Shown: piece after piece, positions 20,602 through 53,400 of the stretch
Numbering within the stretch: the stretch's first letter is position 1
Layout of the letters: every line of letters begins with the position of its first letter
DNA from: Rhodococcoides fascians NBRC 12155 = LMG 3623
GTDB taxonomy: Bacteria > Actinomycetota > Actinomycetes > Mycobacteriales > Mycobacteriaceae
Assembly (NCBI RefSeq): GCF_001894785.1
Contig: NZ_BCWW01000011.1
Span: forward strand, 1-64,000
Reading direction: 5' to 3'
Length of the DNA: 64,000 nt
The notes under the pieces: model-generated
Database searches by the model: none
What the model saw: the letters and a program-made list of their open reading frames with translations, nothing else
What the model was told of the DNA's origin: nothing
Translations under genes and position numbers: made by a program

Positions 20602-20620
20602 GCCCATATTTCTGCAGTGA

Positions 20621-33072: not shown

Positions 33073-33150
33073 CGTTCGTGGGGCGAGCCCCCGCCGCGCG
33101 AACGCCGGCCGACTCTGCAGTACCCACAGATCCCGATGAAGGAGATTTCA

Positions 33151-35855: not shown

Positions 35856-37572
35856 GGATGACATGGTCGGTGCGCTTCGGCCACGAGTACGAGACTTCCC
35901 GGCGTCGGCGAGTTACGCGCTCACCGTCGCAGAATTGCTTGCGCTCCCCAGCCTCTCGGGGTCCACTCTTGTCGCAGGCGAGCAGGGACTCGAGAATGTG
36001 GTTCGACGCGTCAACGTCATCGAAGTTCCCGACATCCTGCCGTGGGTGAAACCGAACGAACTGCTGTTGACAACGGGTTTCCCACTGCGGCATGCAGATT
36101 CGGGCCGCCCGTTCGATGCCGGTGCCCTGGTGGAGCTGGTCGAAGGACTTGCCGAACGCGGTGCGGCCGCGCTCGGAGTCAAAGAAGGACGCTACTTCGG
36201 AGACGTGCCCGCTGCGATGATCGAGGCAGCAGATCGACTCGGCCTGCCGCTCTTCCTCATTCGCCGAGATGTCGGCTTCGACGAGGTCATCTCCGAGGTG
36301 TTCACCCACCTCGTCGACCGGCAGGCGTGGGCGTTGGATATCGCCGATCGCATGCATCGAGCACTGACCTCGATCGTGCTCGAAGGCGGCGATCTACCGC
36401 AGATCGCCGACGAGGTCGCCACGCTGTTCGAGGCAACGGTGCTCATCTGCACTCCGGACGGTCGAGTCCAGGCCACAGCAGGAACAGACGCAGATCTCGC
36501 GGCTTTGGAAGAGATGCCGCTGTTCGACCCGTCCGGTCGCCTGCTCACCGAACGACTCCACGAGGGCCTGCAACCGGTACCGGGCGACAGCGGGCACCGC
36601 ATTGCCGTCGCACCGATCATCGCGGGCGGCACCGACCACGGACTGATCGTGGCTGTGGCGGCCGCCGAGCGACTCGGTCCCGTCACGATGCAGTCCCTCG
36701 AACGCGCGGCCACCGTCGTGGCGTTGGCGGTCATCAAGAAGCTCGCGGTCTCTGCCGTCGAGTCCAAGTTTCGCGGCGACTTCCTGCGGGACGTCCTCAA
36801 CGGCGCAACCGAATCCCCCGAACAGATCATCGAGTACTGCGCCCAGCTCGACTGGGACGTGGACCGGAGCATGGTCGTCATCGTTGCCCAATTGGACGAA
36901 ATCGCCGAGGTTGCCGTGAGCAACTCGGTGAAGCCGGCCGTGTCCGGCCGCCTGCCACAGGAGCGGCTGACCGCGGCGTGGCAGCAGGTGGTGCGCAGGC
37001 GCGATCGACGGGCTCCCGTCGTCGGGTTCAGCAACGAGGTCGTCACGCTCATGCCGGCCGAACCCGGCACCGAACGGGACGTCGTCGAGGATCTGATCGC
37101 CTCCGTCGCCGGAGACAAGGGCGGCGGACGAAACTCGTTCGGCGCGGGCGTGAGCCGCGTCATCGACTCCGTTGCCGACATTCCGCGCGCCTACGATCAG
37201 GCCCGCAAAGCAGTCGTCGTAGGACGGCGCATGCGCGGCAACGGCTCGGTAGCGCATTTCGACGGCCTGGGCGTGCATCGACTGCTGTCACTGGTCACCG
37301 ACGGAGCCGAGCTGCAGGCCTTCGCTACCGAGGTGTTGGGCTCACTCGCCGGCGACGACGCCGATGCCGTCGACCTGCGCCAGACGTTGCAGGCGCTGCT
37401 CGACACCAACTGCAACGTGGCAGAAACCGCCCGCGTCTTGCATTTCCACTACAACACGCTCCGCTACCGCATCGGCAAGCTGGAGTCCATCGTCGGCCCG
37501 TTCACCACCGATCCGATTCTGCGCCTGGATGTAGCGCTGGCACTGCGGGTCGCGGAGATGAAGGGGCTGTGA
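35854..37572 (+). CDS. PucR-family regulator 1
   Basis: A 572-residue PucR-type regulator. The N-terminal PucR domain (about 20-145) includes VVRRVNVIEVPDILPWVKP and ELLLTTGFPLRH. A central degenerate GGDEF/CdaR-like domain follows. The C-terminal HTH_30 is NCNVAETARVLHFHYNTLRYRIG near residue 520. PucR proteins activate purine, pyrimidine or amino-acid catabolic genes in response to a pathway compound. It lies between the two amidase genes, 21 bases before the second. It is a close paralogue of regulator 2 (40248), notably in the HTH, so the two may read similar sites. Confidence 0.9.
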   Translation: MDDMVGALRPRVRDFPASASYALTVAELLALPSLSGSTLVAGEQGLENVVRRVNVIEVPDILPWVKPNELLLTTGFPLRHADSGRPFDAGALVELVEGLAERGAAALGVKEGRYFGDVPAAMIEAADRLGLPLFLIRRDVGFDEVISEVFTHLVDRQAWALDIADRMHRALTSIVLEGGDLPQIADEVATLFEATVLICTPDGRVQATAGTDADLAALEEMPLFDPSGRLLTERLHEGLQPVPGDSGHRIAVAPIIAGGTDHGLIVAVAAAERLGPVTMQSLERAATVVALAVIKKLAVSAVESKFRGDFLRDVLNGATESPEQIIEYCAQLDWDVDRSMVVIVAQLDEIAEVAVSNSVKPAVSGRLPQERLTAAWQQVVRRRDRRAPVVGFSNEVVTLMPAEPGTERDVVEDLIASVAGDKGGGRNSFGAGVSRVIDSVADIPRAYDQARKAVVVGRRMRGNGSVAHFDGLGVHRLLSLVTDGAELQAFATEVLGSLAGDDADAVDLRQTLQALLDTNCNVAETARVLHFHYNTLRYRIGKLESIVGPFTTDPILRLDVALALRVAEMKGL

Positions 37573-37593: not shown

Positions 37594-38970
37594 GTGCCTG
37601 AGGGCAATTCGATCGGAACCGACGCCGTCGCACTCGCGGCAGCAGTGCGCGCCGGCGCCGTGTCCGCGCGCGAGGTGACCGAGCAGCACCTCGAACACAT
37701 CGGCCGAATCAACACCGAGCTGAATGCGATCGTCACCGTCGCAGCCGAATCGGCACTGCTGGCAGCCGACGGAATCGATGCCCGCATCGCCCGCGGCGAG
37801 CGGGTCGGCGACCTCGCCGGAGTGCCGTTCACGGTCAAGGACCTGATCGCCACCGCCGGAGTTCGCACCACCGCGGGTTCACATGCGCTCGCGGACAACG
37901 TCCCTCGCGTCGACGCTCCCGCCGTTGCTCTGATGCGCGCCGAGGGCGCAATCCTGATCGGTAAGACCAACACACCGGAGTTCGGTGCCAGCGGACTCAC
38001 GCACAACGACCTGTTCGGCTACACCGTCAACCCGCTCTCTTCCGCCGACACGAAGCTGTCACCGGGCGGGAGCAGTGGCGGTGAGTCGGCGGCCATCGCG
38101 TCGGGCATGAGCGTGGTGGGACTGGGCACCGATTTCGGTGGTTCGGTGCGGTGGCCCGCGCACTGCACCGGTCTGTGCTCGATCAGGCCGACACCGGGCC
38201 GAATCGACTCCGAGGGGCAGTATCCCGGTGTCATGAGCAACAACCGAGTGCTGACGAATCCGGCGACCATGCACGGCACCGTGCAGACCATCGGACCCAT
38301 GGCCCGCACTCTCGACGACGTGATCCTGTTGCTGCGCGTGCTGTCGTCGCCGCAATACACCTGGACCGACCCTGCGAGCGTGAACCTCCGCGAGCTCGAT
38401 ATTCGTTGGGCCACAGGAGAAGGCACGATTCCGGTCAATGCGGAGATCCGCGCTGCCGTCGAGGCCGCAGCTCTGCGCACAGAGCCGTTCGTCGGATCGG
38501 TGACGCCGTACGAGGGCACCGCACTACGCGAAGCTCATGAGCTGTTCACTCGGATGCGGGGCTGCGAAACCCAAACGGACATCGAGCAATACGGCCCCGC
38601 CGAGTTCAGCGCCAACATTCGGGCCATTCTGGCTGCCGTCGGAACCCCCACGGCCGCAGACGTCGAGGCACTGTGGGCTCGCCGCGCCGAGATGCAGCAC
38701 CAGCTGGTGTCCACGATGGGCGACGTCCTGATACTTCCCGTCGCATCGATTCTCGCTCCGCCGCTCGGTGAGACGAGCTTCGAGGTCGACGGTGCATCTT
38801 TGTCGTGGTCGCAGGCGTTGGCGAGCAGCCGAGCGATCAGCATCCTCGGGGTGCCCTCGGTGGTGATTCCCGTTGCCACCTCCAGCAGCGGTCTGCCGAT
38901 CGGGGTGCAGATCATCGCCAAGCCGTGGCACGAGCATCACGCTCTCGCCGTCGCCGCTGCTCTGACGTAG
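37594..38970 (+). CDS. second amidase-signature hydrolase
   Basis: A 458-residue amidase with the catalytic triad Lys82 (FTVKDL), Ser160 (GGSSGG) and Ser184 (DFGGSVRWPA). It starts with GTG 21 bases after the pucR1 stop, preceded by GGAGACACC, so the two are probably co-transcribed. Candidate substrates are ureido acids of the pyrimidine route, for example ureidomalonate or its 5-methyl form from thymine. Sequence alone does not decide between the two amidases. Its N-terminal half is conventional and its C-terminal third differs clearly from the 34363 enzyme, so they are not recent duplicates. Confidence 0.82.
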   Translation: MPEGNSIGTDAVALAAAVRAGAVSAREVTEQHLEHIGRINTELNAIVTVAAESALLAADGIDARIARGERVGDLAGVPFTVKDLIATAGVRTTAGSHALADNVPRVDAPAVALMRAEGAILIGKTNTPEFGASGLTHNDLFGYTVNPLSSADTKLSPGGSSGGESAAIASGMSVVGLGTDFGGSVRWPAHCTGLCSIRPTPGRIDSEGQYPGVMSNNRVLTNPATMHGTVQTIGPMARTLDDVILLLRVLSSPQYTWTDPASVNLRELDIRWATGEGTIPVNAEIRAAVEAAALRTEPFVGSVTPYEGTALREAHELFTRMRGCETQTDIEQYGPAEFSANIRAILAAVGTPTAADVEALWARRAEMQHQLVSTMGDVLILPVASILAPPLGETSFEVDGASLSWSQALASSRAISILGVPSVVIPVATSSSGLPIGVQIIAKPWHEHHALAVAAALT

Positions 38971-39111: not shown

Positions 39112-40254
39112 ATGCGCGACATTCTCGACGACGTGGCCCCGTGGCTGCGCGAACGTGAGCCGTTCGCCCTGGCCACGGTGGTGCGTACGTGGCAGTCGTC
39201 GCCGCGCCCCGCGGGTGCGGCCATGGCAGTCGCCGCGTCCGGTCAGGTCATCGGCAGCGTTTCCGGCGGCTGCATCGAAGGTGCCCTGTACGAGCTGGCG
39301 AACGACGTCCTCGCCGACGGCATGGCCAGGAGCGAGACCTACCGGGTAGCGGACGACGACGCGATCGGCGTCGGCCTCACGTGCGGCGGCACCATCGAGG
39401 TGTTCGTTCGTCTCATCGACAGCGACGCGTGCGCGGCACTCGAAGACGTCGCTCGTCTGGTCTCGAGCGGCGAGCCGGTGGCCGTGCTCACCGATCTCAC
39501 CACCGGGGCCCCGACGCGGCTGGCGGTTCTGGGAACGGAGGCAACCGTCGATCCCGACGGTCTCACCGACATCGAGTCCGACGGTTCGAGCGTGGGTCTC
39601 GCCGTTCTCGACCGACTGCACCGCGGCGAGTCCGGCTTGGACATTCGCATCGCCGACGACGGCGCGCGGTCCGTCCTGGTCGAGTTGTTCGGACCACCGC
39701 CCCGGATGTACGTGTTCGGTGCCATCGATTTCGCCGCCGCGATGTGCCGCCTGGGCACGTTCGCCGGCTTCGCCGTCACCGTCGTCGACGCCCGCCCGGT
39801 GTTCGCCACCCGAGCACGATTCCCCGACGCGCACGACGTCGTGGTGGCGTGGCCGCACACGTTCCTCGCTACTGCGCCGGTGGACGAGCGCACCGTCATC
39901 ACCGTTCTCACCCATGACGAGAAGTTCGACATTCCATTGCTCGAGGTCGCGCTGCGCAGTGGTGCCGCCTACGTGGGCGCGCTGGGCAGTCGATCTACCC
40001 ACCGCCGCCGGGTGGAACTGCTCGGCGAGCGCGGGGTGACCGAGAGCGAGCTGGCTCGGTTGCACTCCCCCATCGGGCTCGATCTGGGTGCCTCCACTCC
40101 ACCGGAAACGGCGATATCCATCGTGGCCGAGATCCTCAAGGTCTCACGGCAGACGACCGGGCTCGAATTGCGAAGTCTCAGTGGGCCGATCCACCGCGAT
40201 GCCGCTGCCGAGATCGACGCGACATCACCCGTTCGATCGGCCGTCAGGTGCTGA
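39112..40254 (+). CDS. XdhC/CoxI-family molybdenum-enzyme maturation factor
   Basis: A 380-residue XdhC-type protein, which binds molybdenum cofactor, supports its sulfuration and inserts it into xanthine-dehydrogenase-family enzymes. The N-terminal domain has FALATVVRTWQSSPRPAGA and GSVSGGCIEGAL with its conserved cysteine. The C-terminal Rossmann domain includes MYVFGAIDFAAAMCRLG and SGAAYVGALGSRSTHRRR. It overlaps the second PucR gene by seven bases. Its presence supports an active Mo-containing hydroxylase from the genes at 43586-47615. Confidence 0.9.
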   Translation: MRDILDDVAPWLREREPFALATVVRTWQSSPRPAGAAMAVAASGQVIGSVSGGCIEGALYELANDVLADGMARSETYRVADDDAIGVGLTCGGTIEVFVRLIDSDACAALEDVARLVSSGEPVAVLTDLTTGAPTRLAVLGTEATVDPDGLTDIESDGSSVGLAVLDRLHRGESGLDIRIADDGARSVLVELFGPPPRMYVFGAIDFAAAMCRLGTFAGFAVTVVDARPVFATRARFPDAHDVVVAWPHTFLATAPVDERTVITVLTHDEKFDIPLLEVALRSGAAYVGALGSRSTHRRRVELLGERGVTESELARLHSPIGLDLGASTPPETAISIVAEILKVSRQTTGLELRSLSGPIHRDAAAEIDATSPVRSAVRC

Positions 40255-41915
40255 CACTGCACGACGAGCGACGCTCGCCCACCACGGAGGTACCGCATAC
40301 CGTCGAGACCGTGCTGGGCTCGAACCTGCTGGCGCACGCCACGTTGCTCGCCGGTCGCGCCGGCCTCGGCCGGCCGGTACGCAGAATCAATCATGTCGAC
40401 GACCCCGCCGGCATTCGGTTCTGGATTCGGCCGGGTGACCTGTTGTCCACGACGAGCGAGGCCCTCACGCACCTGACGGAGCCGACGGCAGCGCTGCTGT
40501 CCCGAGCGCATTCCCTCGGCGTTGCCGGGATTCTGGTGCGGGTGGACGACGACATCGCCGTTCCGGACAGCGTCGGCGTGAGTGCCGAGACACTGGGCCT
40601 GCCGCTGGTTCAGGTCTGCGGCGAACTCGACCCCGGGCACGATCTCACCGCGGGCCTGCGCGACAACGCAAAGACGCAGGCACGAGCGATGTTTCGGTCC
40701 GAACGTCTGCGCCGGGCATTGACCGACATCACGCTCGCCGGCGGCGGGGTGGCACAACTGGCATTCGCAACCTCGGTCGAATGCGATGTGGCAGTGTCGA
40801 TCACCACGGTGGACGGACGCGAACTTGCCTCGGCAGGCAGTGACGACGAACTGTCCGCCCTCAGCACCAGCACCGCCCTCGATCCCACCGGAAGACTGCG
40901 CACCGACTCCGTCGACGGCGGCCTCGGTCTTCGTTCGCAACAGGGCAATTCGATCGCGGTATGCGCCATTACTGCCAACGGAATCGACCACGGACGCATC
41001 GTTCTGTTCTCCTCACGTCGGCCTTTGACGGAATCGGACCTGCACACTGCCGACGCGGCCGCAGGCGTGTTGGCGATGGTCGTCACTCGCGATCTCGCGC
41101 TGTCAGCAGTCGAGGAGAAACACCGATCGAATTTTCTGCGCGATCTTCTCCTGGGCCGAGGCGGCGAGCACGCACACGCGGTGGCGCATGCTCGACGCTT
41201 CGGCTGGGATCTCGGCAGGCCGGTGGTGATCGTCGCGATCGAACCGATCCCACACCTCGACGACGAACCGACGCCCGGCCGCAGGCCACTCGTCGATCGG
41301 CAGATGTCGGCTTTCGCAGGGGCTCTGGCACAACGAGATCCGCAGGCCGCCATCGCCGCCCTCGGCACCGAGACCGTCATCATCATGGGCGAACGTCCGA
41401 CGACGGTCGCGGACGTGCACGAGATCGTCGAACGAGTGCACGGAGACGGCGGCGGTGGTCGGCAACCGTTCACGGTCGGGATTTCGCGTCCGTGCATCAC
41501 GGTGGCCGACATCCCCAGCAGGTACGGCCAGGCGCGTACCGCGTTGAAGGTCGGCCGGCAGGTATCCGGGGACTGGGCCGTCACCACGTTCGACGAACTC
41601 GGCGTGTTCCGACTACTGAGCCTGGTGGACAACGTCGACGAGCTCGAATCGTTCACCCGGGAAACCCTGCACGACCTCGCCGGACACGACGACGAGGCAC
41701 GCGACATGCGCAGAACGCTGGAGACGTTGCTGGCCACCAACATCAACATCGCCGAAACCGCTCGGGCACTGCACTTTCACTACAACACCTTGCGATACCG
41801 AATAACGAAACTCGAAAAGATACTGGGCCCCTTCACCGATCGCGCCGATCTACGCCTGGATCTTTCCCTTGCGCTGAAAATCATGGCCATGCGCGGAACC
41901 GACCACCACATGTGA
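40248..41915 (+). CDS. PucR-family regulator 2
   Basis: A 555-residue PucR regulator starting with GTG inside the xdhC stop region. The N-terminal part (RINHVDDPAGIRFWIRPGDLL) is a variant PucR domain, followed by a central sensor region. The C-terminal HTH is NINIAETARALHFHYNTLRYRI, nearly identical in style to regulator 1. Overlap with xdhC and location before the uracil permease imply that it controls uracil uptake and the molybdenum dehydrogenase. The effector is probably a pyrimidine, by analogy with purine-responsive PucR. Confidence 0.88.
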   Translation: MLTLHDERRSPTTEVPHTVETVLGSNLLAHATLLAGRAGLGRPVRRINHVDDPAGIRFWIRPGDLLSTTSEALTHLTEPTAALLSRAHSLGVAGILVRVDDDIAVPDSVGVSAETLGLPLVQVCGELDPGHDLTAGLRDNAKTQARAMFRSERLRRALTDITLAGGGVAQLAFATSVECDVAVSITTVDGRELASAGSDDELSALSTSTALDPTGRLRTDSVDGGLGLRSQQGNSIAVCAITANGIDHGRIVLFSSRRPLTESDLHTADAAAGVLAMVVTRDLALSAVEEKHRSNFLRDLLLGRGGEHAHAVAHARRFGWDLGRPVVIVAIEPIPHLDDEPTPGRRPLVDRQMSAFAGALAQRDPQAAIAALGTETVIIMGERPTTVADVHEIVERVHGDGGGGRQPFTVGISRPCITVADIPSRYGQARTALKVGRQVSGDWAVTTFDELGVFRLLSLVDNVDELESFTRETLHDLAGHDDEARDMRRTLETLLATNINIAETARALHFHYNTLRYRITKLEKILGPFTDRADLRLDLSLALKIMAMRGTDHHM

Positions 41916-42044
41916 CGGACCCGCCATCGAGCGCTTGGCAGATTGCGCTCGTAGCGATTTGGAAATGCGTCAGTAACGTTGCAGGACAATGCTTTACCCA
42001 TCCCGCGAACCACCCCGGTTCGATACGTTGGAGAAAGGCTCGAC

Positions 42045-43505
42045 ATGCCTATCTGGAAGATTCACGGAGACGGAAAGAATGTTCGACCGGGTGACGTCGT
42101 CGCGCCGAACGAACGGTTGAACTGGGGCCGCACCATCAGTCTCGGCGGCCAGCATGTGGTGTCGATGTTCGGGGCCACATTCGTCTTCCCCATCATCATG
42201 GGACTCAATCCTCAACTCGCCATTCTGATGTCGGGCTTCTGCACCATCTTCTTCCTACTCATGGTCAAGGGCCGCATCCCCAGCTACCTCGGCACGTCCG
42301 CGGTGTTCGTCGGCGGTGTCGCGGCCATCCGAGCGCAGGGTGGAACGTCGGCCGAGATCACCGGTGCCATCCTCGTATCGGGCCTCGTCCTGGCTCTCGC
42401 CGGGCTCGCCATCCACTTCATGGGCGGCGGCGTCGTGGTGCGGGTGCTGCCCCCTGTCGTCACCGGTGCGGTGGTCATGTTGATCGGCTTCAATCTCGCG
42501 CCTGTCGTCGCCAGCACCTACTGGCCACAGGACCAATGGGTCGCTCTCGCAGTGATGTTCGTGCTCATCGTCATGAGCGTAGCGTTACGCGGGTTCCTCG
42601 GACGGATCGCGATTCTGCTGTCGCTGGTGTTCGGGTACGCGCTGTCCTGGATCCTCGACCTCGTATCCGGGCCCATCACGTCCTACGACGCCACGGCCGG
42701 CGAGGTCACCGAGCACTTCCGCGTCAATTGGTCGGGTGTCGAGGCGTCGCAATGGTTCGGGCTCCCGCCGTTCAGCGACGAGGCGAACGGCATCGTCGGC
42801 ATTCATGCACCGTCGTTCAGTCTCGCCTTCATCGTTCTCGTCCTCCCCGGTGTCATCGCTCTGATCGCCGAAAATGCAGGACACGTCAAGGCTGTCGCGG
42901 AGATGACCGGTGACGATCTCGACCCGATGATGGGCCGGGCACTCGCTGCCGACGGCATCGCAACGGTCATGGCCAGCTCGGTCGGTGGCTCACCGACGAC
43001 GACCTACGCCGAGAACATCGGCGTCATGGCGGCGACCAAGGTCTATTCGACGGCGGCATACACGGCGGCCGGAATCATCGCCATGATCCTCGGATTCTCG
43101 CCGAAGTTCGGCGCGCTGATCTCGGCCACCCCCGGCGGCGTACTCGGCGGTATCACCGTTGTCCTCTACGGCATGATCGGTCTGCTGGGTGCCAAGATCT
43201 GGCGCGAGAACGGTGTCGACTTCGGCAACCCGCTCAACATGATGCCGGTTGCCGCGGGGCTGATCATCGCGATCGGCGACACCTCGCTCGTCTTCAGCGA
43301 TTCGTTCTCGTTGAGCGGTATCTCCCTCGGCACGATCGTCGTCATCGGGCTCTACCACCTGTGCGCTCGCATTGCCCCGGCCCACATGAAGACACCGGTC
43401 GACGCGTCGCCTCGGCATCGATCCTCCTCTACCACAGCACGTTCCGACGGCAGCGACGGAGACGGGGTTGCCGGCGAGGTCGACACCCTGAAGCCGTTGC
43501 GGTAA
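42045..43505 (+). CDS. uraA: UraA-type uracil permease (NCS2 family)
   Basis: A 486-residue NCS2 nucleobase:cation symporter with about 14 membrane segments. The uracil-transporter signature is visible: VIALIAENAGHVKAVAEMTG and GGSPTTTYAENIGVMAATK. These correspond to the substrate-binding glutamate segments of E. coli UraA and differ from the QNxGxxxxT signature of xanthine/urate permeases. This points directly to uracil or thymine as the substrate of the cluster. ATG 42045 has GGAGAAAGG upstream; the 41979 start is rejected. The long hydrophilic C-terminus from residue 455 is presumably cytoplasmic. Confidence 0.9.
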   Translation: MPIWKIHGDGKNVRPGDVVAPNERLNWGRTISLGGQHVVSMFGATFVFPIIMGLNPQLAILMSGFCTIFFLLMVKGRIPSYLGTSAVFVGGVAAIRAQGGTSAEITGAILVSGLVLALAGLAIHFMGGGVVVRVLPPVVTGAVVMLIGFNLAPVVASTYWPQDQWVALAVMFVLIVMSVALRGFLGRIAILLSLVFGYALSWILDLVSGPITSYDATAGEVTEHFRVNWSGVEASQWFGLPPFSDEANGIVGIHAPSFSLAFIVLVLPGVIALIAENAGHVKAVAEMTGDDLDPMMGRALAADGIATVMASSVGGSPTTTYAENIGVMAATKVYSTAAYTAAGIIAMILGFSPKFGALISATPGGVLGGITVVLYGMIGLLGAKIWRENGVDFGNPLNMMPVAAGLIIAIGDTSLVFSDSFSLSGISLGTIVVIGLYHLCARIAPAHMKTPVDASPRHRSSSTTARSDGSDGDGVAGEVDTLKPLR

Positions 43506-43585: not shown

Positions 43586-44500
43586 ATGAAACCTTCTCCA
43601 TTGAAATACCATCGGCCGCGGTCGATCGAGGAGGCGTGCCGCATCCTGGCCGAGGTCGACGGCAAGGTGCTGGCCGGCGGTCAGTCCCTGATTCCGATGC
43701 TGTCGATGCGCCTGGCCGCTCCCGGGAACCTGATCGACATCACCGGTATCGACGGTCTCGACGACATCACCGGGTCGACCCAGTCGGGCGTCACGTTCGC
43801 GGCCCTGGCCACGCACGCGTCGCTCGCGTCGAACCGGGCTGCCGCTCAGACGCAGCCGTTGCTCGGACGGGCACTGCAGTTGGTGGCCCACGCGACCATC
43901 CGGAACCGTGGGACCACCGTCGGATCCATCGTGCATGCCGACCCGTCGGCCGAGATGCCCGCGGTCATCCGGTTGCTCGACGGTTCGGTCACGGTGCAGT
44001 CCGTCCACGGCCGCCGAGAGATCGCGGCGAAAGATCTGTTTCTCGGGCCGTTGGAGTCCTCGCTCGAGACGGACGAGATCGCCATCGCGGCAATGGTTCC
44101 CGCTGCCCGGGTCGGAGAAGGAACGGCCATCGACGAGGTTGCGCGTCGCCACGGCGACTACGCGCTCGTCGGAGTCGCGGCCCGCGTCACCGTTGCCGAG
44201 AACGCGGTACGCACCGCGCACGTCACCTATGTGTCCGCCGGAGAATTCGGCGAGGTCGTCGACTACACCGACGTCATCGGTGGGGCCGCGGTGTCCGACG
44301 CACGTGATCCGAAGTGGAACACGTTGTCCGAGGACGCACGTCGACGCGTCGAGACCGAGTCCGACATTCATGCCACCGCGGCATACCGATCCCAACTCGT
44401 CGCAGCACTGACCGCACGGGTGGTGATGGCCGCCGCAGTCGACGGCGCGTCGTCGAAGTCCGCTCACCCGCAGCACGCCGATTCCGGAGTGAACCACTGA
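43586..44500 (+). CDS. molybdenum hydroxylase FAD-binding (medium) subunit
   Basis: A 304-residue CoxM/XdhB-like subunit. The FAD motifs are VLAGGQSLIPMLSMRLA (about 31-47) and ATIRNRGTTVGSIVHADPSAE (two parts around residue 105-125). It passes electrons from the iron-sulfur subunit to an acceptor. Order is medium, small, large, with 1-base and 4-base overlaps, and then CoxG, so it is one operon. ATG 43586 is chosen and the 43535 start is rejected. By context (uracil permease before, barbiturase cluster upstream) it is a candidate part of uracil/thymine dehydrogenase (EC 1.17.99.4). Confidence 0.9.
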   Translation: MKPSPLKYHRPRSIEEACRILAEVDGKVLAGGQSLIPMLSMRLAAPGNLIDITGIDGLDDITGSTQSGVTFAALATHASLASNRAAAQTQPLLGRALQLVAHATIRNRGTTVGSIVHADPSAEMPAVIRLLDGSVTVQSVHGRREIAAKDLFLGPLESSLETDEIAIAAMVPAARVGEGTAIDEVARRHGDYALVGVAARVTVAENAVRTAHVTYVSAGEFGEVVDYTDVIGGAAVSDARDPKWNTLSEDARRRVETESDIHATAAYRSQLVAALTARVVMAAAVDGASSKSAHPQHADSGVNH

Positions 44501-45138
44501 TGAAGACAACAGATATCGAACAGCAGTTGGACGATCTGATGGCGGAGACCGGTGAACAACACGTACAGGTGACGTTCACCCTCAACGCAACCAAGCAGAC
44601 GATCGTCGTCCCGGCCCGCACTCTCGCGTCGGACGCCATCCGCCACGACCTTCGTCAGACCGGCACCCACGTCGGATGTGAGCACGGCGTGTGCGGCGCA
44701 TGCACCGTGCTTCTCGACGGCAAGCCCGTCCGGGCCTGCCTGATGCTCGCCGCCAGCCTCGAGGGGCAGACCGTCACCACGGTGGAGGGTCTCGTCGAGC
44801 CGGACGGCACTCTGCATCCCGTGCAGCAGGCCTTCAAGGACTGCCACGGTCTGCAGTGCGGTTTCTGCACACCGGGATTCGTCACCACCATCGCCGCGTT
44901 CCTCGACGAAAACGATTCACCGACGCAGGAGGAGGCCACCGAGGCCATCGCCGGCAACATCTGCCGGTGTACGGGCTATCAGAACATCAAGGCTTCGGTG
45001 CTGCGCGCCGCCGAGATCAAACGCGAACGGGCGGGCGAGTTTCCGCTCGGTCCCGACGACGAGTCGAGTCGTGCCGCACTCGACCGCAAGGTACGCGGAT
45101 CCACCAGTCCCGTCGGCGGACGGATGGGCCGAGCATGA
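44500..45138 (+). CDS. molybdenum hydroxylase 2Fe-2S (small) subunit
   Basis: A 212-residue CoxS/XdhA-type ferredoxin subunit. The plant-type cluster ligands are Cys60, Cys65, Cys68 and Cys80 (GCEHGVCGACTV). The second cluster ligands are Cys120, Cys123, Cys155 and Cys157 (CGFCTPG and CRCTGY). All eight are present, so the electron path should work. The first 20 residues (helical, acidic) and the last 40 (Asp/Glu/Arg-rich) extend beyond the usual 155-165 residues. ATG 44500 shares one base with the stop of the medium subunit. Confidence 0.92.
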   Translation: MKTTDIEQQLDDLMAETGEQHVQVTFTLNATKQTIVVPARTLASDAIRHDLRQTGTHVGCEHGVCGACTVLLDGKPVRACLMLAASLEGQTVTTVEGLVEPDGTLHPVQQAFKDCHGLQCGFCTPGFVTTIAAFLDENDSPTQEEATEAIAGNICRCTGYQNIKASVLRAAEIKRERAGEFPLGPDDESSRAALDRKVRGSTSPVGGRMGRA

Positions 45139-47615
45139 GCACCACGCGCACCGCACCGCCGCACACTCCCACCAACACCGCTCCCCTGTTCGGCCAGCCG
45201 CTGTCACGGTCGGAGGACGAGCGCCTGCTCAGCGGCAAGGGCAAGTATCTCGACGACCTCGGTCACGGCGCGCTGATCGCCGCCTTCGTGCGCTCCCCAC
45301 ACGCACATGCACGCATCACCGCCATCGATATCGACGACGCGCTGGCCATGCCGGGCGTGCACGCGGTGTACACCTACGACGATCTCGAAGCGGACTCCGC
45401 CGAGATGGCCGAAGGGCTACCGCTGCTGATTCCCCATCCGGCAATCATCGCTCCGCGCAACGGCTTCCCACTCGCCAAGGACGAGGTCAACCACGTCGGT
45501 GAGGCCATCGTCATGGTCATCGCAACGAACCGTTACGTGGCCGAGGATGCCTGCGCGGTCATCGAGGTCCGCTACGACATCCTCGACCCCGTCGTGGGCA
45601 TCGACACCGCGCGCGTCGCGGCTCGCCGAGTACACGACGACGTGCCGGACAACGTGGCCGCGCACCTGCAGCACGGTTTCGGAGACATCGACGCCGAACT
45701 TGCCGCTGCACCACACCGCATCACCCTCGACCTGAACATCGAGCGTTCAGCGGCAATGCCGATGGAGGGCAAAGGCGTCTACGCGCGCTGGGACAGTGAC
45801 GAGGAGACGCTGACCTTCTGGTCTTCCACGCAGACCTCCACGTCGGTGCGCGCGGCCGTCGCGGCGCGACTCGGCATGGCGATGAACAAGATTCACTGCA
45901 TCGCCCCGGACGTCGGTGGCGGCTTCGGCGTGAAGATCATGCACCCGTGGCCGGAAGAGGTGATGGTGACGTGGGCAGCCCGACAACTCGGCCGCGCCGG
46001 TATCTCCAACGAAGTCAAGTGGGTCGAGGACCGCCGCGAGCACTTCATCTCGAGTGCGCACGAACGTGCACAGGTCCAAGAGGTCACCCTCGGTTTCGAC
46101 GACGAGGGACGGCTGCTGGCCTTCGACTTCACCGTCTGGCACGACAACGGTGCATACCTGCCGTACGGCATCATCGTGCTGATCAACACCGCGACGCAGG
46201 TGCTCGGGCCCTACAAGCCGGTCTCGTTCCGCTGCAACGGTTATTCGCTGTACACCAACACCGTCATCGTCATTCCGTATCGAGGAGCAGGCCGCCCGCA
46301 GGGTGTGTTCGCGATGGAACGCTCGATGGACGCCATCGCCCAGTACCTCGGCAAGGACCGGCTCGAGGTCCGCGAGAAGAACCTCATCAGGCCCGAGGAG
46401 ATGCCCTACGACTTCGGTTTGATGTTCCAGGACGGTCGCCCGTTGATCTACGACACCGGCGACTACCAGGCCGGGATCGACAAGCTCAAGGCCCTGATCG
46501 ACTGGGACGGCTTCCCCGAATACAAGAAGCAGGCTGCAGCGCAGGGCCGCACCGTCGGTATCGGTGTCGGTGCCTACGTCGAGGGCACCGGCCCGGGGCC
46601 GTACGAGGGCGCGCACGTGCTCATCGAGAACTCGGGAAAGATCAAGGGCGCAACGGGCTTGACGACGCAGGGCCAGGGCCATCAGACGACGTTCGCGCAG
46701 ATCGTCGCCGATGACCTGGGTGTCTCCATCGCCGACGTCGAGATCACCACCGGCGATACTCGTCGATTCGGTTATGCCGTCGGCACATTCGCCTCTCGCG
46801 GTGCAGTGATGTCCGGTTCGGCGTTCCACGTGGCCGCGCAGATGGTCGCCGAGAAAGCGAAGGTCATCGCCGGGCGCGCCCTCGATCTCGACCCCGTCGA
46901 GCTCGAATTGCGCGGGGGCTACGTCTGCAAGATCGGCACCGAACCCGGAGCAGAGGGCACGTCCATCTCCCTCGGTGTTGTTGCCGTACTGTCCAATCCG
47001 CTGCGTTATGCCTTCGACAAGGAGTCGAGGCAGGCCACCGGGTTCGCGAAGATGGACACCGACATGACGATCCCGCCGGTGCCGGAGGGCGAACAGCCGG
47101 GCCTCGAAGCCACCGGTTACTACTCTCCCCCGCGCTCGACGTTCGCGTCGGGCATCCACGCGGCGATCGTCGAGACCGATCCGGTGACGGCCGAGATCCA
47201 CGTCGAGCGGTACGCAGTGGTGCACGACTGCGGCAACGTCATCAACCCTCGGATCGTCGAGGGCCAGATTCACGGCGGCGTCGCCCAGGGAATCGGCGGA
47301 GCGTTGTACGAGAAGATCGCCTACGACGAGCACGGGCAACTCCTGAACGCCTCGTTCATGGACTTCCTGATGCCGTTCGTCACCGAAGTTCCCGAGACGA
47401 TCGAGATGGACCACACCGTCACCCCGTCCGGGCTCAATCCGTTGGGCATGAAGGGTGCCGGCGAAGCCGGCGTCATCCCCACCAGCGCCGTCATCGCGGC
47501 CGCTGTCGAAGATGCCGAGGGCTTTTCGATCACCTCGATGCCCATTTCACCGTCCGACCTGTACGAGCTGCGGCTGACCCACGCGGTCGCTCAGACAACC
47601 GAGGAGATTTCATGA
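45135..47615 (+). CDS. molybdenum hydroxylase large (Mo-binding) subunit, candidate uracil/thymine dehydrogenase
   Basis: An 826-residue Mo-cofactor subunit of the xanthine dehydrogenase/CO dehydrogenase family. The catalytic glutamate is Glu777 in KGAGEAGVIPT, and the Mo-pterin segments APDVGGGFGVK and GQGHQTTFAQI are present. The loop that in form I CO dehydrogenase reads AYxCSFR is here PYRGAGR (residues 381-387), so CO oxidation is not expected. The substrate is inferred from neighbours: hydroxylation of uracil to barbiturate, or thymine to 5-methylbarbiturate. ATG 45135 overlaps the small-subunit stop. Confidence 0.9.
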   Translation: MSTTRTAPPHTPTNTAPLFGQPLSRSEDERLLSGKGKYLDDLGHGALIAAFVRSPHAHARITAIDIDDALAMPGVHAVYTYDDLEADSAEMAEGLPLLIPHPAIIAPRNGFPLAKDEVNHVGEAIVMVIATNRYVAEDACAVIEVRYDILDPVVGIDTARVAARRVHDDVPDNVAAHLQHGFGDIDAELAAAPHRITLDLNIERSAAMPMEGKGVYARWDSDEETLTFWSSTQTSTSVRAAVAARLGMAMNKIHCIAPDVGGGFGVKIMHPWPEEVMVTWAARQLGRAGISNEVKWVEDRREHFISSAHERAQVQEVTLGFDDEGRLLAFDFTVWHDNGAYLPYGIIVLINTATQVLGPYKPVSFRCNGYSLYTNTVIVIPYRGAGRPQGVFAMERSMDAIAQYLGKDRLEVREKNLIRPEEMPYDFGLMFQDGRPLIYDTGDYQAGIDKLKALIDWDGFPEYKKQAAAQGRTVGIGVGAYVEGTGPGPYEGAHVLIENSGKIKGATGLTTQGQGHQTTFAQIVADDLGVSIADVEITTGDTRRFGYAVGTFASRGAVMSGSAFHVAAQMVAEKAKVIAGRALDLDPVELELRGGYVCKIGTEPGAEGTSISLGVVAVLSNPLRYAFDKESRQATGFAKMDTDMTIPPVPEGEQPGLEATGYYSPPRSTFASGIHAAIVETDPVTAEIHVERYAVVHDCGNVINPRIVEGQIHGGVAQGIGGALYEKIAYDEHGQLLNASFMDFLMPFVTEVPETIEMDHTVTPSGLNPLGMKGAGEAGVIPTSAVIAAAVEDAEGFSITSMPISPSDLYELRLTHAVAQTTEEIS

Positions 47616-48274
47616 GAATCGCAGGAACCGCCACGCTGGCCGCACCTCCCGCCGAGGTGTACGACAGCATGCAGGACGGCCGGGTACTGGCCGCAACCAT
47701 CCCCGGAGTGCAGTCCCTCGAGCAGTTGAGCGACGATCACTACAAGCTCTCGATCACCGCAGGCGTCGCCGCCATCAAGGGCACCTACGACGGTGAAGTT
47801 GTCCTCTCGCAACAGAATCGGCCCGAATCGTTCGTCATGACCGCCTCCGGTGCCGGCGCACCGGGCACGGTGCGCGCCGACGTCACCATCAAGCTCGAGC
47901 CCACCGAAGGCGGCGGCACGATGCTCAGCTACGACGCCGACGCCGTGGTCGGCGGCATGGTCGGCGGGGTCGGTCAGCGCATGATCACCGGCGTCGCAAA
48001 GAAGATGGCCGGAGTGTTCTTCAACGGCCTCGACGGCGTCATCGCCAACGGGGTGCCGGAGGCCGCTGCTGCGCCCGCGGAGGTATCAGCCAGCGATTCC
48101 GGCACCACCCCCACTGCCCTGCCTGTCGCGGCCGGACGCGCTGTGAGTGCCGGTGCACCCGTCGCCGCGCAGTCCGTCCGCGGCACCCTGCTGGCCGCCG
48201 CAGCCGGCGCAGGCTTCGCACTGGCCGGAGTCGTGTTGGGCGGACTGCTCACTCGCTCGTCCTGTCACCGGTAA
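47612..48274 (+). CDS. CoxG-like SRPBCC protein with C-terminal membrane anchor
   Basis: A 220-residue carbon-monoxide-dehydrogenase subunit G-type protein. Residues 1-145 are the SRPBCC fold (IAGTATLAAPPAEVYDSMQD, IPGVQSLEQL). An Ala/Thr-rich linker leads to a hydrophobic helix at about 187-212. CoxG proteins recruit the CO dehydrogenase to the membrane, so this one may link the dehydrogenase to quinone reduction, in line with the non-NAD acceptor of EC 1.17.99.4. Its ATG overlaps the large-subunit stop by four bases. Confidence 0.88.
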   Translation: MRIAGTATLAAPPAEVYDSMQDGRVLAATIPGVQSLEQLSDDHYKLSITAGVAAIKGTYDGEVVLSQQNRPESFVMTASGAGAPGTVRADVTIKLEPTEGGGTMLSYDADAVVGGMVGGVGQRMITGVAKKMAGVFFNGLDGVIANGVPEAAAAPAEVSASDSGTTPTALPVAAGRAVSAGAPVAAQSVRGTLLAAAAGAGFALAGVVLGGLLTRSSCHR

Positions 48275-48293: not shown

Positions 48294-48344
48294 ACGACAA
48301 AGGCCGCTCATCCCCAGCCATCGGGGGTGAGCGGCCTTTGTCGT
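48294..48344 (+). terminator. very strong terminator after the molybdenum hydroxylase operon
   Basis: The arms at 48294-48310 and 48328-48344 are perfectly complementary over 17 bases (ACGACAAAGGCCGCTCA and its complement). Pairing continues into the loop with CCCC/GGGG to give about 22 bp and a seven-base loop. It lies 20 bases after the coxG stop and separates that operon from hyuA. Confidence 0.85.
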
Positions 48345-48405
48345 TGCAAGTACTGCCAATTCGACGCCGGTGCAGGGCGCGCGAAGCTCAAATGCTCGGC
48401 TGGAG

Positions 48406-48424
48406 TTTGGCACCTTGTGCCAAA
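48406..48424. promoter_or_regulatory. pyrimidine-cluster inverted repeat, copy 3
   Basis: TTTGGCACCTTGTGCCAAA is a perfect 8-bp inverted repeat with three central bases, 100 bases before the hyuA start and just after the terminator. It is the best-conserved example of the GGCA-N5-TGCC element. Confidence 0.65.
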
Positions 48425-48523
48425 GATACTGAGACGCAGAACGGGTCGAATGTGAGTACACGTCAGGTACCCGCCGATCCGATCAACGGACGCGTGGCCT
48501 ACGAACCATATCGAGGAGGAAGC

Positions 48524-50623
48524 GTGGAACCACGAAAGATTCGGGTCGGTATCGACACCGGTGGCACATTCACCGACGTCGTGGCAGTGGACGAGGAGTC
48601 TGGAGCCATGGTGACCACCAAGACTCCGTCGACGCCGAGTGATCCGGCCGAGGGATTCCTGACCGGCATCGACAAGGTACTCCGCCAGCTCGGCGTATCC
48701 GGCGATTCGCTCAGCGCCGTCAGCCATGGCACCACCGTCGCCACCAACAAGCTGCTCGAAGGCAAGGTGGAGAACCTGGGGTTCATCACCACCGAGGGCT
48801 ACGAGCACGTACTCGAGATCGCGCGCCAGTCGGTACCCGACGGCTACGGCAACTCGTACTTCTGGGTCAAGCCCGATCGCATCGTGCCCGCACACCGCGT
48901 CCGCACCATCCGCGGCCGGCTCTCGTTTGACGGCAACGAGATTCGCCCTCTCAACGACGACGACGTACGCGCGGCAGCAGCATTCTTCAAGGCAGAGGGC
49001 GTCAAGACCCTCGGCGTCTGCCTGGTGCACTCCTATGCCAACCCCGATCACGAGCAGCGCGTCCGCGACATCCTTCTCGAGGAATACCCCGAGGCGACGG
49101 TCTCCATCTCCACCGAGGTACTGCGTGAGTACCGCGAATTCGAGCGCGCCATCACCACATTGGTCGACGCGGCCGTGAAGCCGAACATTCGCAGCTACGT
49201 CAACAACATCGCGAACCGCCTGCGGGAGTTCGCCACCGAATCCGGTGATGCACGCGATGTGCCGTTCTACGTCATGAAGTCCAACGGCGGCGTCCTGTCC
49301 GCCAAAGAGGTTGTGCACCAGCCCATCACCACCGTGCTGTCGGGACCGGCCGCCGGCGCGCTGGGTGCGGCCCTGGTGGCCAGCGCTGCAGGTGTCGAAC
49401 AGGTGTTGACCTGCGACGGCGGCGGCACCTCCACCGACGTGACCGTCGTGGTCCGCGGCGAGCCCGCGCTCACCACCGAGGGACGCGTCGGCAACTACCC
49501 GTCGAAGATCCCGATGATCGACGTCGTCACCGTCGGCGCAGGCGGCGGCTCGATCGCCTGGATGACACCCGAGGGCACGCTGCGCGTCGGGCCACATTCG
49601 GCCGGTGCCGATCCCGGGCCCATGTGTTACGGAAACGGCGGCTCCGCGCCCACCATCACCGATGCCCACGTCCTGCTCGGCCGCATTCCACCCCACCTGC
49701 TCGGCGGCGAGATCCCCCTCGATACCGACCTGGCACGCAAGGGCATCGAAGACCTCGCGCAACAGCTCTCGCTCGAAGTCGAAGCTTGCGGCACCGGCAT
49801 CCTCGAGGTCTCGGCCTGGAACCAGGCCAACGCGCTGCGGCAGATCTCGGTCAAGCGTGGCCTCGACGTCCGCGACTTCACCCTCGTCACGTTCGGCGGC
49901 TCCGGGTCGTTGCTCGCCTGCCGCCTGGTGGACATCCTGGGTCTGAAAGACGTTCTGGTACCGCTGAACCCGGGCAACGTCTCGGCATTCGGTCTGCTGA
50001 CCGTCGATGTGCGCAACGACTACGTGCAGACGCACGTCAGCCGGCACGACCGTCTGCGCGCGGAGGATCTGGAATCGGAGCTGGCAGTGCTGGCATCTCG
50101 GGCCGACGAGGCGCTCGCCGGTGAGGGCTTCGCGGCCGAGGATCGTCGCTACGCACGCTCGGCCGACCTGCGCTACTTCGGTCAGGCCTTCGAGGTGCGC
50201 GTACCGATCGCCGACGGCGAGATCACCCAGGCGACCATCGATCAGGCCGCCGAGGCTTTCCACGAAGCGCACCGTGAGCTGTACGGCTACGACTTCCGCG
50301 GAGATCAGAGTCAGTTCGTCGAGTGGGTCAACCTGCGGGTCAGCGGTATCGGCCCCATCAAGCGCCCCGTGCTCTCGGAGATCGCCGCCGGCACCGGAGC
50401 CGAAAGTGCCCGCACCGGAACGCGTCAGGCGTACTTCGACGGTTGGCACGAGACCGCGATCTACAGCCGTGCGGATCTCGGTGCCGGTGACACGATCACC
50501 GGCCCGGCCGTCATCGAAGAATTCAGCTCCACCGTGCCGATCGATCCGGGCTTCTCCGCCCGCATCGACACGTTCGGCAACGTCCGCATCACCCGCACTC
50601 TCGACTCGAACGGAGCGAACTGA
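48524..50623 (+). CDS. hyuA: hydantoinase A / 5-oxoprolinase-family ATP-dependent hydrolase subunit
   Basis: A 699-residue HyuA protein. The N-terminal ATPase motif is GIDTGGTFTDVV, with SGPAAGALGAALVA and CDGGGTSTDVTV as further phosphate-binding loops of the actin-like fold. Family members are ATP-dependent hydantoinases, 5-oxoprolinases or acetone/acetophenone carboxylases. GTG 48524 follows GAGGAGGA. It overlaps hyuB by one base. In this cluster an ATP-driven opening of a pyrimidine-derived ring such as 5-methylbarbiturate, or an unrelated hydantoin, is possible; the substrate is not established. Confidence 0.9.
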   Translation: MEPRKIRVGIDTGGTFTDVVAVDEESGAMVTTKTPSTPSDPAEGFLTGIDKVLRQLGVSGDSLSAVSHGTTVATNKLLEGKVENLGFITTEGYEHVLEIARQSVPDGYGNSYFWVKPDRIVPAHRVRTIRGRLSFDGNEIRPLNDDDVRAAAAFFKAEGVKTLGVCLVHSYANPDHEQRVRDILLEEYPEATVSISTEVLREYREFERAITTLVDAAVKPNIRSYVNNIANRLREFATESGDARDVPFYVMKSNGGVLSAKEVVHQPITTVLSGPAAGALGAALVASAAGVEQVLTCDGGGTSTDVTVVVRGEPALTTEGRVGNYPSKIPMIDVVTVGAGGGSIAWMTPEGTLRVGPHSAGADPGPMCYGNGGSAPTITDAHVLLGRIPPHLLGGEIPLDTDLARKGIEDLAQQLSLEVEACGTGILEVSAWNQANALRQISVKRGLDVRDFTLVTFGGSGSLLACRLVDILGLKDVLVPLNPGNVSAFGLLTVDVRNDYVQTHVSRHDRLRAEDLESELAVLASRADEALAGEGFAAEDRRYARSADLRYFGQAFEVRVPIADGEITQATIDQAAEAFHEAHRELYGYDFRGDQSQFVEWVNLRVSGIGPIKRPVLSEIAAGTGAESARTGTRQAYFDGWHETAIYSRADLGAGDTITGPAVIEEFSSTVPIDPGFSARIDTFGNVRITRTLDSNGAN

Positions 50624-52554
50624 TGACCGTCATCGACATGGTGAACAACAAGCCCTACCGGCTTTCTCCGGTCGACGCGCCTGCGCCTGATCCCGTTCTC
50701 GTCGAGATAGTGGCCGGCTACCTCGCAAGCGTCGAAATGGAAGTGGAGACCGCCATTTCACGGACGTCGCGGTCACCGATGATTCGTGACGCCCACGATT
50801 TCCGCGCCGGAATTCACGACCGCAATCTGCGCAAGCTGACGGGGCGTTCCTACTCCGCGTTGGTGCATCCGGTGGCTCGCGACTTCCCGCTCGAGACCAT
50901 GAAGCCGGGCGACGTCTACTTCCACAACGACGTCTATCTCTCCGAGGGTGGCATCGGCCACCTGCCCGATCTCTGTGTCACTGTGCCGGTGTTCGCTACC
51001 AAGCCCGGCGACACAGAGCCGTCGGTCGTTGCTTTCGTGCAGGCCTTCGGCCATCACGACGACATCGGCGGCTGCTGCCCCGGCTCCATGCCGTCCGGTG
51101 CGACCACCGTGTACGAAGAGGGCCTGATGGTTCCGCCGATCAAGCTGTGGGATCAGGGCGTACCCAACCAGGCTGCGTTGACGATCATGACGCGCAACTC
51201 ACGCATGCCCGACGCGTTGGCCGCCGATCTCGACGCCGAATGCTCGGCGTGCCTCATGGGTGCCCGGCGAATGACGGAGCTGTACGAGCGCTACGGCATC
51301 GACACCGTCGAGGCGTGCTTCGACTCGATGATGGATGCCACCACCGAGATCTACCGTCGCGAGATCCTGAGCAAGATCCCCAAGGGTGAATACACCTGGG
51401 AGGACTACGCCGAGCACGACGGCGTCGACGAGCCGATGCTGCACGTTCAGCGGATCACGTTGACCAAAACCGGCCCCGAGGACGAGCGCGGCGAGCGCCT
51501 CATCCTCGACTTCACCGGCACCGGGCCGCAGGCCAAGGGCCCGATCAACCACTGTGGTGATTACGCGGACGGCAACTTCCTGGCCAAATGGCTTGCGCCG
51601 GTGCTCCGCAACCTCGCGGACTCCCCCGAGCGTATGGCCGAGCTCGACGTCAACGAGGGCGTCATCCCGCTGATCGAGATGAAGTTCCCCGAAAAGGGCA
51701 CGCTCATCACCCCGATCTTCCCGGCCCCGACCAACGCTCGGACGTTCGTCATCCTGCGTCTGCTCGGTGTGCTCGCCGGCGTCGTGGCAAAAGCTGTGGA
51801 CGGCAACATGCCTGCCGATCAGGAAACCATCCGCTACACGGGCGTGTACGGCGACGACTTCGACGGCAACTCGTACCTCATGCGTGAGGTGCTCGGCGGC
51901 GGCTCTGGTGGACGGCACTACGCGGACGGTGAAGACACCATCCACGTCGTACCCGATTCCCGGAACCTGCCCACCGAGTTCACCGAGAGCCGCTTCCCGT
52001 TCATCGTCGAAAAGCTCGGCTTGGCCAAGGATTCCGGCGGTGCCGGACGCTACCGCGGCGGCCTCGGTTACGAGAAGCACATCCGGATGCTCAAGGATGC
52101 GCACTTCATGTCCATCGCCGACCGTTCGATTCTCGCGTGCTGGGGCGTCAAGGGCGGTAAGGCCGGCGGATCGTTCTCCGTAACGCTGAATCCGGGCCAG
52201 CCCAACGAGCGTGAATTCGACGCGTTGACCGATGCCGAGCCGATCCTGGCGGGCGACACCATCCGTATCCGCACGACGGGTGGCGGCGGCTGGGGCGATC
52301 CGTTGGAGCGTCCCATCGAATCCGTCGAGCAGGACGTGCTGTGGGGCAAAGTCTCTCGCGAGTTCGCGGCCACGGACTACGGCGTCGTGATTGCCGAGGG
52401 CACAGCGACCGCGGATGTAGAAGCATCGGAGAAGCTCCGCGCAGAGATGCGCAATGCACGCGGCCTCGATGAGCCGTTCTTCGATCGTGGGCCCGGTTAC
52501 GAACGCCTCTCCGGTGGCGCGAAGTTCGCCGAGTACGACTTCATCGATCGCTGA
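50623..52554 (+). CDS. hyuB: hydantoinase B / oxoprolinase-family subunit
   Basis: A 643-residue HyuB protein, partner of HyuA. Typical segments are RDAHDFRAGIHDRNLRKLTG, FHNDVYLSEGGIGHLPDLCV (20-residue blocks), CCPGSMPSGATTVYEEGL, and a C-terminal RTTGGGGWGDPLERP. The pair should form a single ATP-dependent enzyme. The start is coupled to the hyuA stop. The C-terminus extends about 60 residues past the GGGGWGDP motif, as in many actinobacterial homologues. Confidence 0.9.
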   Translation: MTVIDMVNNKPYRLSPVDAPAPDPVLVEIVAGYLASVEMEVETAISRTSRSPMIRDAHDFRAGIHDRNLRKLTGRSYSALVHPVARDFPLETMKPGDVYFHNDVYLSEGGIGHLPDLCVTVPVFATKPGDTEPSVVAFVQAFGHHDDIGGCCPGSMPSGATTVYEEGLMVPPIKLWDQGVPNQAALTIMTRNSRMPDALAADLDAECSACLMGARRMTELYERYGIDTVEACFDSMMDATTEIYRREILSKIPKGEYTWEDYAEHDGVDEPMLHVQRITLTKTGPEDERGERLILDFTGTGPQAKGPINHCGDYADGNFLAKWLAPVLRNLADSPERMAELDVNEGVIPLIEMKFPEKGTLITPIFPAPTNARTFVILRLLGVLAGVVAKAVDGNMPADQETIRYTGVYGDDFDGNSYLMREVLGGGSGGRHYADGEDTIHVVPDSRNLPTEFTESRFPFIVEKLGLAKDSGGAGRYRGGLGYEKHIRMLKDAHFMSIADRSILACWGVKGGKAGGSFSVTLNPGQPNEREFDALTDAEPILAGDTIRIRTTGGGGWGDPLERPIESVEQDVLWGKVSREFAATDYGVVIAEGTATADVEASEKLRAEMRNARGLDEPFFDRGPGYERLSGGAKFAEYDFIDR

Positions 52555-52563: not shown

Positions 52564-53400
52564 ATGGCGCTCGATGTTTCCCGTGGCACCGACATCGCGA
52601 TCGTCGGTGCCACGGGCAAGACCGGACGAGCCGTCGCAGATGCACTCGACGGCGTAGCGGTGGTGCGGCGGCTGAGCCGTTCAGCACCGGACTTTCCGGT
52701 GGACCTGGAGACCGGTGAAGGCCTTGCCGAGGCCTTCACCGGGTGCCGTGGGGTGTATTTCATTGCACCCAATGTGCATCCGGACGAGCCGGCTCTAGTG
52801 TTGCGGGCGCTGGACGCGGCGGCGTCCGCCGGAGTGGACCACGTCGTCTACCACTCGGTGGCGTGGCCCTACAGCCCGAGGATGCCGCATCACATGGACA
52901 AGGCCCGCTGCGAGGACGATCTTCGTGCCTTCTGCAGTGAGCACGGAATGCACTGGACCATCCTGCAACCGTGTGCCTATGCGCAGAACTTCGAGGCGGT
53001 TCTGGACGGGAGCAGTACCGATCTTGTTGTGCCCTACAGCCTGGACAGTAAGTTCTCGCTCGTCAGCCTCGACGATGTGGCCGAGGTGGCAGCCCGGGTC
53101 CTCATCGAGGGACCTGAGCTGCACCATGGGGCGACGTACGAGCTCGGTGGGCCGGAAGCGCTCAGTGTCCGAGACGTGGTTCGTCTGGTCGAGGTGGCCA
53201 CCGGCCGTGTGGTCGCTTCCAGGTCCTCGAGTATCGATGAATGGATGAGGCTGCACAGCGACTCGATGTCCGCCGATGAGCAACATCGACTCGGGGCAAT
53301 GTTCGAGTTCTACGACGACCGAGACTTTCTGGCCGGGAATGCCGTCACCGCAGCCCTGTTGGGCCGGGAGCCGACGCCGGTGCGTGCGCTGATCAGCTAG
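52564..53400 (+). CDS. NmrA-like NAD(P)H-binding protein
   Basis: A 278-residue atypical SDR of the NmrA/HSCARG type. The dinucleotide motif VGATGKTGRAVAD is near the N-terminus, and the chain lacks the YxxxK catalytic pair (VYHSVAWPYSP in its place). The helical C-terminus has DEWMRLHSDSMSADEQ. Members act as NADP(H) sensors or quinone reductases. It lies nine bases behind hyuB and is probably in that operon; its role in pyrimidine degradation is unclear. Confidence 0.78.
   Translation: MALDVSRGTDIAIVGATGKTGRAVADALDGVAVVRRLSRSAPDFPVDLETGEGLAEAFTGCRGVYFIAPNVHPDEPALVLRALDAAASAGVDHVVYHSVAWPYSPRMPHHMDKARCEDDLRAFCSEHGMHWTILQPCAYAQNFEAVLDGSSTDLVVPYSLDSKFSLVSLDDVAEVAARVLIEGPELHHGATYELGGPEALSVRDVVRLVEVATGRVVASRSSSIDEWMRLHSDSMSADEQHRLGAMFEFYDDRDFLAGNAVTAALLGREPTPVRALIS

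Follow-up and report, generated by a model that had tools for sequence, protein, structure and literature searches.

A candidate gene set for the orphan uracil/thymine dehydrogenase (EC 1.17.99.4) in a barbiturase-containing cluster of Rhodococcoides fascians

The oxidative pathway of uracil degradation dates from the biochemistry of the 1950s, and the uracil/thymine dehydrogenase activity (EC 1.17.99.4), which converts uracil and thymine to barbiturates, has been assayed with artificial acceptors. No gene assignment for this enzyme was found in the open-licence literature (enzyme databases being outside the scope of the search), in agreement with a previous sequence-only reading of the locus described here, which knew of no sequence tied to this EC number; an earlier suggestion is not excluded. 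The locus lies in a window of 64,000 nucleotides, i.e., the whole stretch of Rhodococcoides fascians DNA that was analyzed (contig NZ_BCWW01000011.1, positions 1 to 64,000), and it raises the question of which substrate is oxidized by the three-subunit molybdenum hydroxylase that it encodes. We consider the three subunits a strong candidate for uracil/thymine dehydrogenase, with a probability of roughly three in four, the substrate being inferred in the absence of an enzyme assay.

All genes of the cluster, at 30.3–53.4 kb of the window, are co-directional on the + strand and follow one another in the order of Table 1. The placement proposed by the sequence-only reading was confirmed: genes for the medium, small and large (hereafter L) subunits and for a CoxG-like protein occupy 43586–48274 behind a uracil-type permease, with barbiturase (hereafter Bar) and XdhC upstream on the same strand. 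These four open reading frames are intact and overlap each other, by 1 base for medium/small (the small-subunit ATG lying over the medium-subunit stop) and by 4 bases each for small/large and large/CoxG. The top NCBIfam match of the permease is RutG, with a score under the cut-off, and its closest solved relatives are uracil permeases.

Table 1. Features of the cluster, with coordinates counted from the first base of the window; roles given as proposed or candidate are inferred.
Feature	Position	Strand	Basis
Class III CoA transferase, proposed malonate activation; ATG 30323 inferred from domain start	30323..31495	+	
Fused AccD/AccA-like carboxyltransferase, proposed malonyl-CoA decarboxylation	31492..33072	+	
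Barbiturase (Bar)	33136..34257	+	Best PDB match 5hwe and five Bar residues
Amidase 1, NCBIfam PRK07486, candidate ureidomalonase	34363..35811	+	
PucR-family regulator 1	35854..37572	+	
Amidase 2	37594..38970	+	
XdhC-family molybdenum-hydroxylase maturation factor	39112..40254	+	
PucR-family regulator 2	40248..41915	+	
NCS2 permease, uracil (UraA/RutG) type; alternative start ATG 42045	41979..43505	+	
Medium subunit, FAD-binding, 304 aa; ATG at 43586	43586..44500	+	Pfam FAD_binding_5 and CO_deh_flav_C
Small subunit, two [2Fe-2S] domains	44500..45138	+	Pfam
Large subunit (L), binds the molybdenum cofactor, 826 aa, with Glu777 and the loop PYRGAGR; proposed uracil/thymine dehydrogenase	45135..47615	+	Pfam, alignment, AlphaFold model
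CoxG-like protein, hydrophobic C-terminal segment	47612..48274	+	Pfam
HyuA, hydantoinase/oxoprolinase A; true start probably downstream of 48338	48338..50623	+	Nearest NCBIfam model caprolactamase alpha, below cut-off
HyuB, hydantoinase/oxoprolinase B	50623..52554	+	
NmrA-like NAD(P)-binding protein	52564..53400	+	

The three subunits contain the domains of the xanthine oxidase family (PF01315, PF02738 and PF20256; PF01799 and PF00111; PF00941 and PF03450). The molybdenum-site glutamate pointed out by the sequence-only reading, Glu777 (numbered from the ATG at 45135), is indeed kept in L and is invariant across a 33-row alignment, paralogues included; we take this position to be that of the catalytic Glu of molybdenum hydroxylases. 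An AlphaFold model of L built with a 33-row alignment (pLDDT 86.5, pTM 0.87) has as its nearest solved folds 6-hydroxypseudooxynicotine dehydrogenase (7dqx, Z 44.0, 32% identity) and quinoline 2-oxidoreductase (1t3q, Z 43.4, 36% identity over 759 residues), with CO dehydrogenases (1n61, 8uem) and xanthine oxidases at about 41, and the closeness of these Z scores means that the fold alone cannot pick among these enzymes. As judged from its sequence and predicted fold, L is a xanthine-oxidase-family molybdenum hydroxylase, a type of enzyme that the reaction of EC 1.17.99.4 fits. The loop of L reads PYRGAGR, whereas 1t3q has AYRGVGF and 7dqx AYRAPGR, and the residue-level evidence provides no argument for the choice of substrate, as nothing in it favors uracil over other N-heterocycles. 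Glyceraldehyde dehydrogenase models are the best matches of the medium (190 bits vs. a cut-off of 350) and small (178 vs. 290) subunits, and L scores 577 vs. 790 on the corresponding large-subunit model; this identity was not adopted because no model cut-off is met.

Context provides the argument for uracil, and the cluster holds the next enzyme of the pathway, Bar. The closest solved protein to the window's Bar is 5hwe, a barbiturase (753 bits, the top-scoring cyanuric acid hydrolase reaching 331). Asn194, His324, Lys328, Val348 and Ser349, named as the specificity set of barbiturase by Peat et al. (PMC3758960), all have identical counterparts in the window protein (N199, H329, K333, V353 and S354, the group VI signature, with the offset of 5 judged from the alignment). 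Bar also scores above the cut-off of the NCBIfam cyanuric acid amidohydrolase model (478 vs. 360), which we take to be too wide; a cyanuric acid hydrolase as the ring opener was ruled out by the five residues despite this match. Judging by these sequence features, the enzyme encoded in the same cluster as L very probably breaks down barbiturate, and it would perform the step following that of L.

The association of the two genes extends well beyond this genome. Among 397 genomes of the order, 97 carry both L and Bar, 293 carry neither, three have Bar only (G135, G155 and G171, 85–88% complete) and four have L only (G147, 88% complete, and G160, G289 and G361, 99–100% complete), out of 100 with Bar and 101 with L. 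Both genes are on one contig in 85 of the 97 genomes, at a spacing of < 50 kb in 82 (all 82 with L and Bar on the same strand) and < 20 kb in 76; in the remaining three they are 79–96 kb (G051, G115) or 3.9 Mb (G101) apart. A phylum sample (n = 296) yielded Bar (at least 66% identity) in 14 genomes, L (at least 60%) in 16 and both in 14, L without Bar being limited to two fragmented genomes of one genus (G752, G767). Five further L-like matches of 50–52% were found in the phylum sample, two of which accompany Bar-like proteins of 42–43%. At one locus (L231; G915:C66:40001-60000), genes for an L-like protein (50%) and a Bar-like one (43%) adjoin each other on opposite strands. The pairing of L and Bar is far beyond chance, though the genomes are related; because of this relatedness the counts are not independent and a Fisher's p would not be a fair probability.

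A scan of named genomes gave 495 Bar relatives, of which 80 were kept as Bar loci. L was present at 64% identity or above in 20 of the 22 named Bar genomes searched (22 out of the 80 loci), the misses being Rhodococcus sp. AW25M09, where the contig ends at about the expected start of L, and Pseudonocardia acaciae, which has Bar and no close L. Although L was detected < 10 kb from Bar by tblastn in only 25 of the 80 loci, many of which are incomplete, all 25 molybdenum-hydroxylase large subunits found at this distance are L (60–86% identical), i.e., no molybdenum hydroxylase other than L was seen < 10 kb from Bar in these loci. Likewise, no different molybdenum hydroxylase was found at 80 bits or more in three loci without L < 10 kb from Bar (L097, L118, L139).

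In R. erythropolis NBRC 15567 (locus L092), the order is Bar, amidase 1, permease, medium, small, L and CoxG, with L 6.4 kb downstream of Bar and amidase 1 directly after Bar, as in the window. Pyrimidine use has been reported for R. erythropolis CCM2595 = JCM3132 (PMC3961730); the genome with L near Bar is that of strain NBRC 15567, not JCM 3132. The uracil-type permease is present in two copies flanking the R. erythropolis barbiturase (L092:2822-4213 and 14266-15705). The candidacy for EC 1.17.99.4 put forward by the sequence-only reading is thus supported by the identity of Bar, the joint presence of L and Bar in 15 families (by family labels, order and phylum samples), their adjacency in R. 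erythropolis and the lack of another molybdenum hydroxylase near Bar in the loci searched, with the substrate only inferred from context.

A more complex picture emerges within the window's own family, where L matches were found in 39 of 401 genomes, 37 of them at 80% identity or more, and these 37 comprise 19 with Bar and 18 without. Bar was detected in one (G567) of the 20 L-negative same-genus genomes tested, and in 5 of the 19 family genomes with both genes they lie > 350 kb apart on one contig. With Bar missing from 18 of the 37 close-L genomes, the product of L may be opened without Bar, or the substrate may differ there. All 17 Bar-less loci examined (out of 18 genomes, G594 being left out) contain amidase 2, PucR, permease, medium, small, L, CoxG, HyuA, HyuB and NmrA together and in that order, and 15 of the 17 keep XdhC, so that in these loci HyuAB rather than Bar is the closest partner of L; the window joins this amidase 2-to-NmrA block with a Bar block. 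From the conservation of the Bar-less block with HyuAB we infer, as no more than a proposal, a role for HyuAB as a second enzyme opening the product of L.

The same observations are open to another interpretation, namely that L hydroxylates some other permease-imported N-heterocycle or cyclic ureide, that HyuA/HyuB and subsequently amidase 2 act on the product to open it, and that Bar serves a parallel route. The company of HyuAB and amidase 2 in all 17 Bar-less loci examined and the absence of Bar from 18 of the 37 close-L genomes of the family speak for it. Against it, L genomes without Bar number only 4 of 101 in the order sample (three of these four belonging to the window's family) and 2 of 16 in the phylum sample, and the permease beside L is of uracil type. 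Moreover, rows with and without Bar are intermingled in the tree of L, with five changes, of which starred branches force four. The tree was made by a quick method and midpoint-rooted, and its outgroup branches are long; with this reservation, we read the pattern as repeated loss or reshuffling. On balance, we regard this alternative as unlikely.

Activity as a xanthine dehydrogenase, or on another purine, is far less plausible for L: its neighbors do include an NCS2 permease, XdhC and regulators of PucR type, but L reaches only 367 bits on the top XDH model (cut-off 780), a better XDH candidate exists at C7:340474 (itself also below cut-off, at 515), and the recurrent partner of L is barbiturase. 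CO dehydrogenases have a CoxG-type partner protein and a loop, AYxCSFR, in which Cys binds Cu. The sequence-only reading had noted PYRGAGR in place of this loop, and the alignment bears this out, with AYRCSFR and AYACSFR in the two aligned CO dehydrogenases and PYRGAGRPQ in all 78 L orthologue rows (9 being duplicates of other rows). An aerobic CO dehydrogenase, as L would be named from NCBIfam NF040766 (1408 bits vs. a cut-off of 950) and as the adjoining CoxG-like gene might suggest, is hardly tenable given the absence of the Cys-bearing loop from 78/78 rows and a score of only 408 bits vs. 991 on the CO dehydrogenase equivalog TIGR02416. Both the CO dehydrogenase and the xanthine dehydrogenase identities were rejected on loop and model scores. 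The R. erythropolis orthologue scores 1402 on NF040766; six other MoCoBD_2 matches occur at five places in the genome, and five proteins there score 187–598 bits, below the cut-off of this model. Naming by NF040766 as aerobic CO dehydrogenase despite the missing loop is seen in the window (45135-47615) and in loci L172, L044 and L085.

If the three subunits are indeed uracil/thymine dehydrogenase, uracil would be imported via the NCS2 permease, XdhC would assist the maturation of the molybdenum enzyme, and the medium, small and L subunits together would transfer water-derived oxygen onto uracil C6, an inferred position, to yield barbiturate, thymine probably being converted likewise to 5-methylbarbiturate. 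Electrons would pass via the two [2Fe-2S] clusters and FAD before reaching an acceptor that remains unidentified and can only be inferred, possibly at the membrane with CoxG. The sequence-only reading had envisaged a CoxG-tethered, quinone-linked enzyme; all that the locus offers for this idea is the CoxG-like protein with its hydrophobic C-terminus, and a literature search on CoxG and menaquinone returned nothing on the L enzyme. Barbiturase would then convert barbiturate to ureidomalonate, amidase 1 would split the latter (other genera perhaps using a transcarbamylase and carbamate kinase), and the CoA transferase and carboxyltransferase would turn malonate into acetyl-CoA. The roles of all neighbors are inferred. 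Amidase 1 is a candidate for ureidomalonase (reportedly described by Soong in 2001 and presumably EC 3.5.1.95), and its position right after Bar fits this role; HyuA/HyuB (48338-52554) are a candidate ATP-dependent opener of barbiturate or 5-methylbarbiturate; and the CoA transferase with the fused AccD/AccA-like protein (30323-33072) forms a possible malonate-to-acetyl-CoA module. As two hydantoinase-family proteins of the genome pass their cut-off (RutA remaining below), another uracil route is also possible in this organism.

Clustering of open reading frames around Bar in the 80 loci, without chosen queries, places L (23) among the seven commonest families, along with a carbamate kinase-like family (50), CoA transferase (43), HyuA (36), HyuB (33) and amidase (23); these counts are lower bounds because even Bar was recovered by the gene caller in no more than 64 of the 80 loci. 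NmrA-like NAD(P)-binding proteins are found near Bar in 15 of the 80 loci, and unlabelled clusters also recur. Searches by tblastn with chosen queries in the same 80 loci, many of them incomplete, yielded carbamate kinase in 67, CoA transferase in 49, HyuB in 44 and L in 25. One carbamate kinase-like protein passes the PRK12352 subfamily model and stays under the TIGR00746 cut-off (341 of 358). AllF and AllG homologues occur in loci of Aeromicrobium and Pseudonocardia acaciae as well as in the clusters of G799, G853, G748, G811, G788, G959 and G1010, although the Aeromicrobium AllF does not reach the cut-off of the FdrA model. Homologues of carbamate kinase, of the AllF/AllG oxamate carbamoyltransferase or of both were observed in Bar clusters at L105:9016-9948 and 18183-21079, at L118:18395-21115, and in L215, L220, L222, L225, L227, L228 and L234. 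Their presence suggests a phosphorolytic cleavage of ureidomalonate with recovery of ATP. E. coli AllFGH converts oxalurate to oxamate and carbamoyl phosphate (PMC11326118), and this chemistry fits ureidomalonate because the latter is oxalurate with one additional CH2.

Overall, and more tentatively than the assignment of L itself, a whole oxidative pyrimidine route may be envisaged with two opener branches, Bar for barbiturate and an ATP-dependent HyuA/HyuB, perhaps for 5-methylbarbiturate from thymine and, where strains lack Bar, as the sole opener. An AllFG-type transcarbamylase might, in many other actinobacteria, convert ureidomalonate to carbamoyl phosphate and malonamate, with carbamate kinase recovering ATP. 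L might represent a class of molybdenum hydroxylases defined by a new substrate, its members at present being wrongly labelled as CO dehydrogenases; we consider this extended scheme possible rather than probable.

The proposed identity of L, if confirmed, would provide a sequence for the orphan EC number 1.17.99.4 and would correct a family model naming L proteins CO dehydrogenases, which would inflate the counts of CO oxidizers. It would also allow the oxidation of uracil and thymine to be tested in actinobacteria that possess both L and Bar, among them Rhodococcus, Nocardioides and Geodermatophilus.
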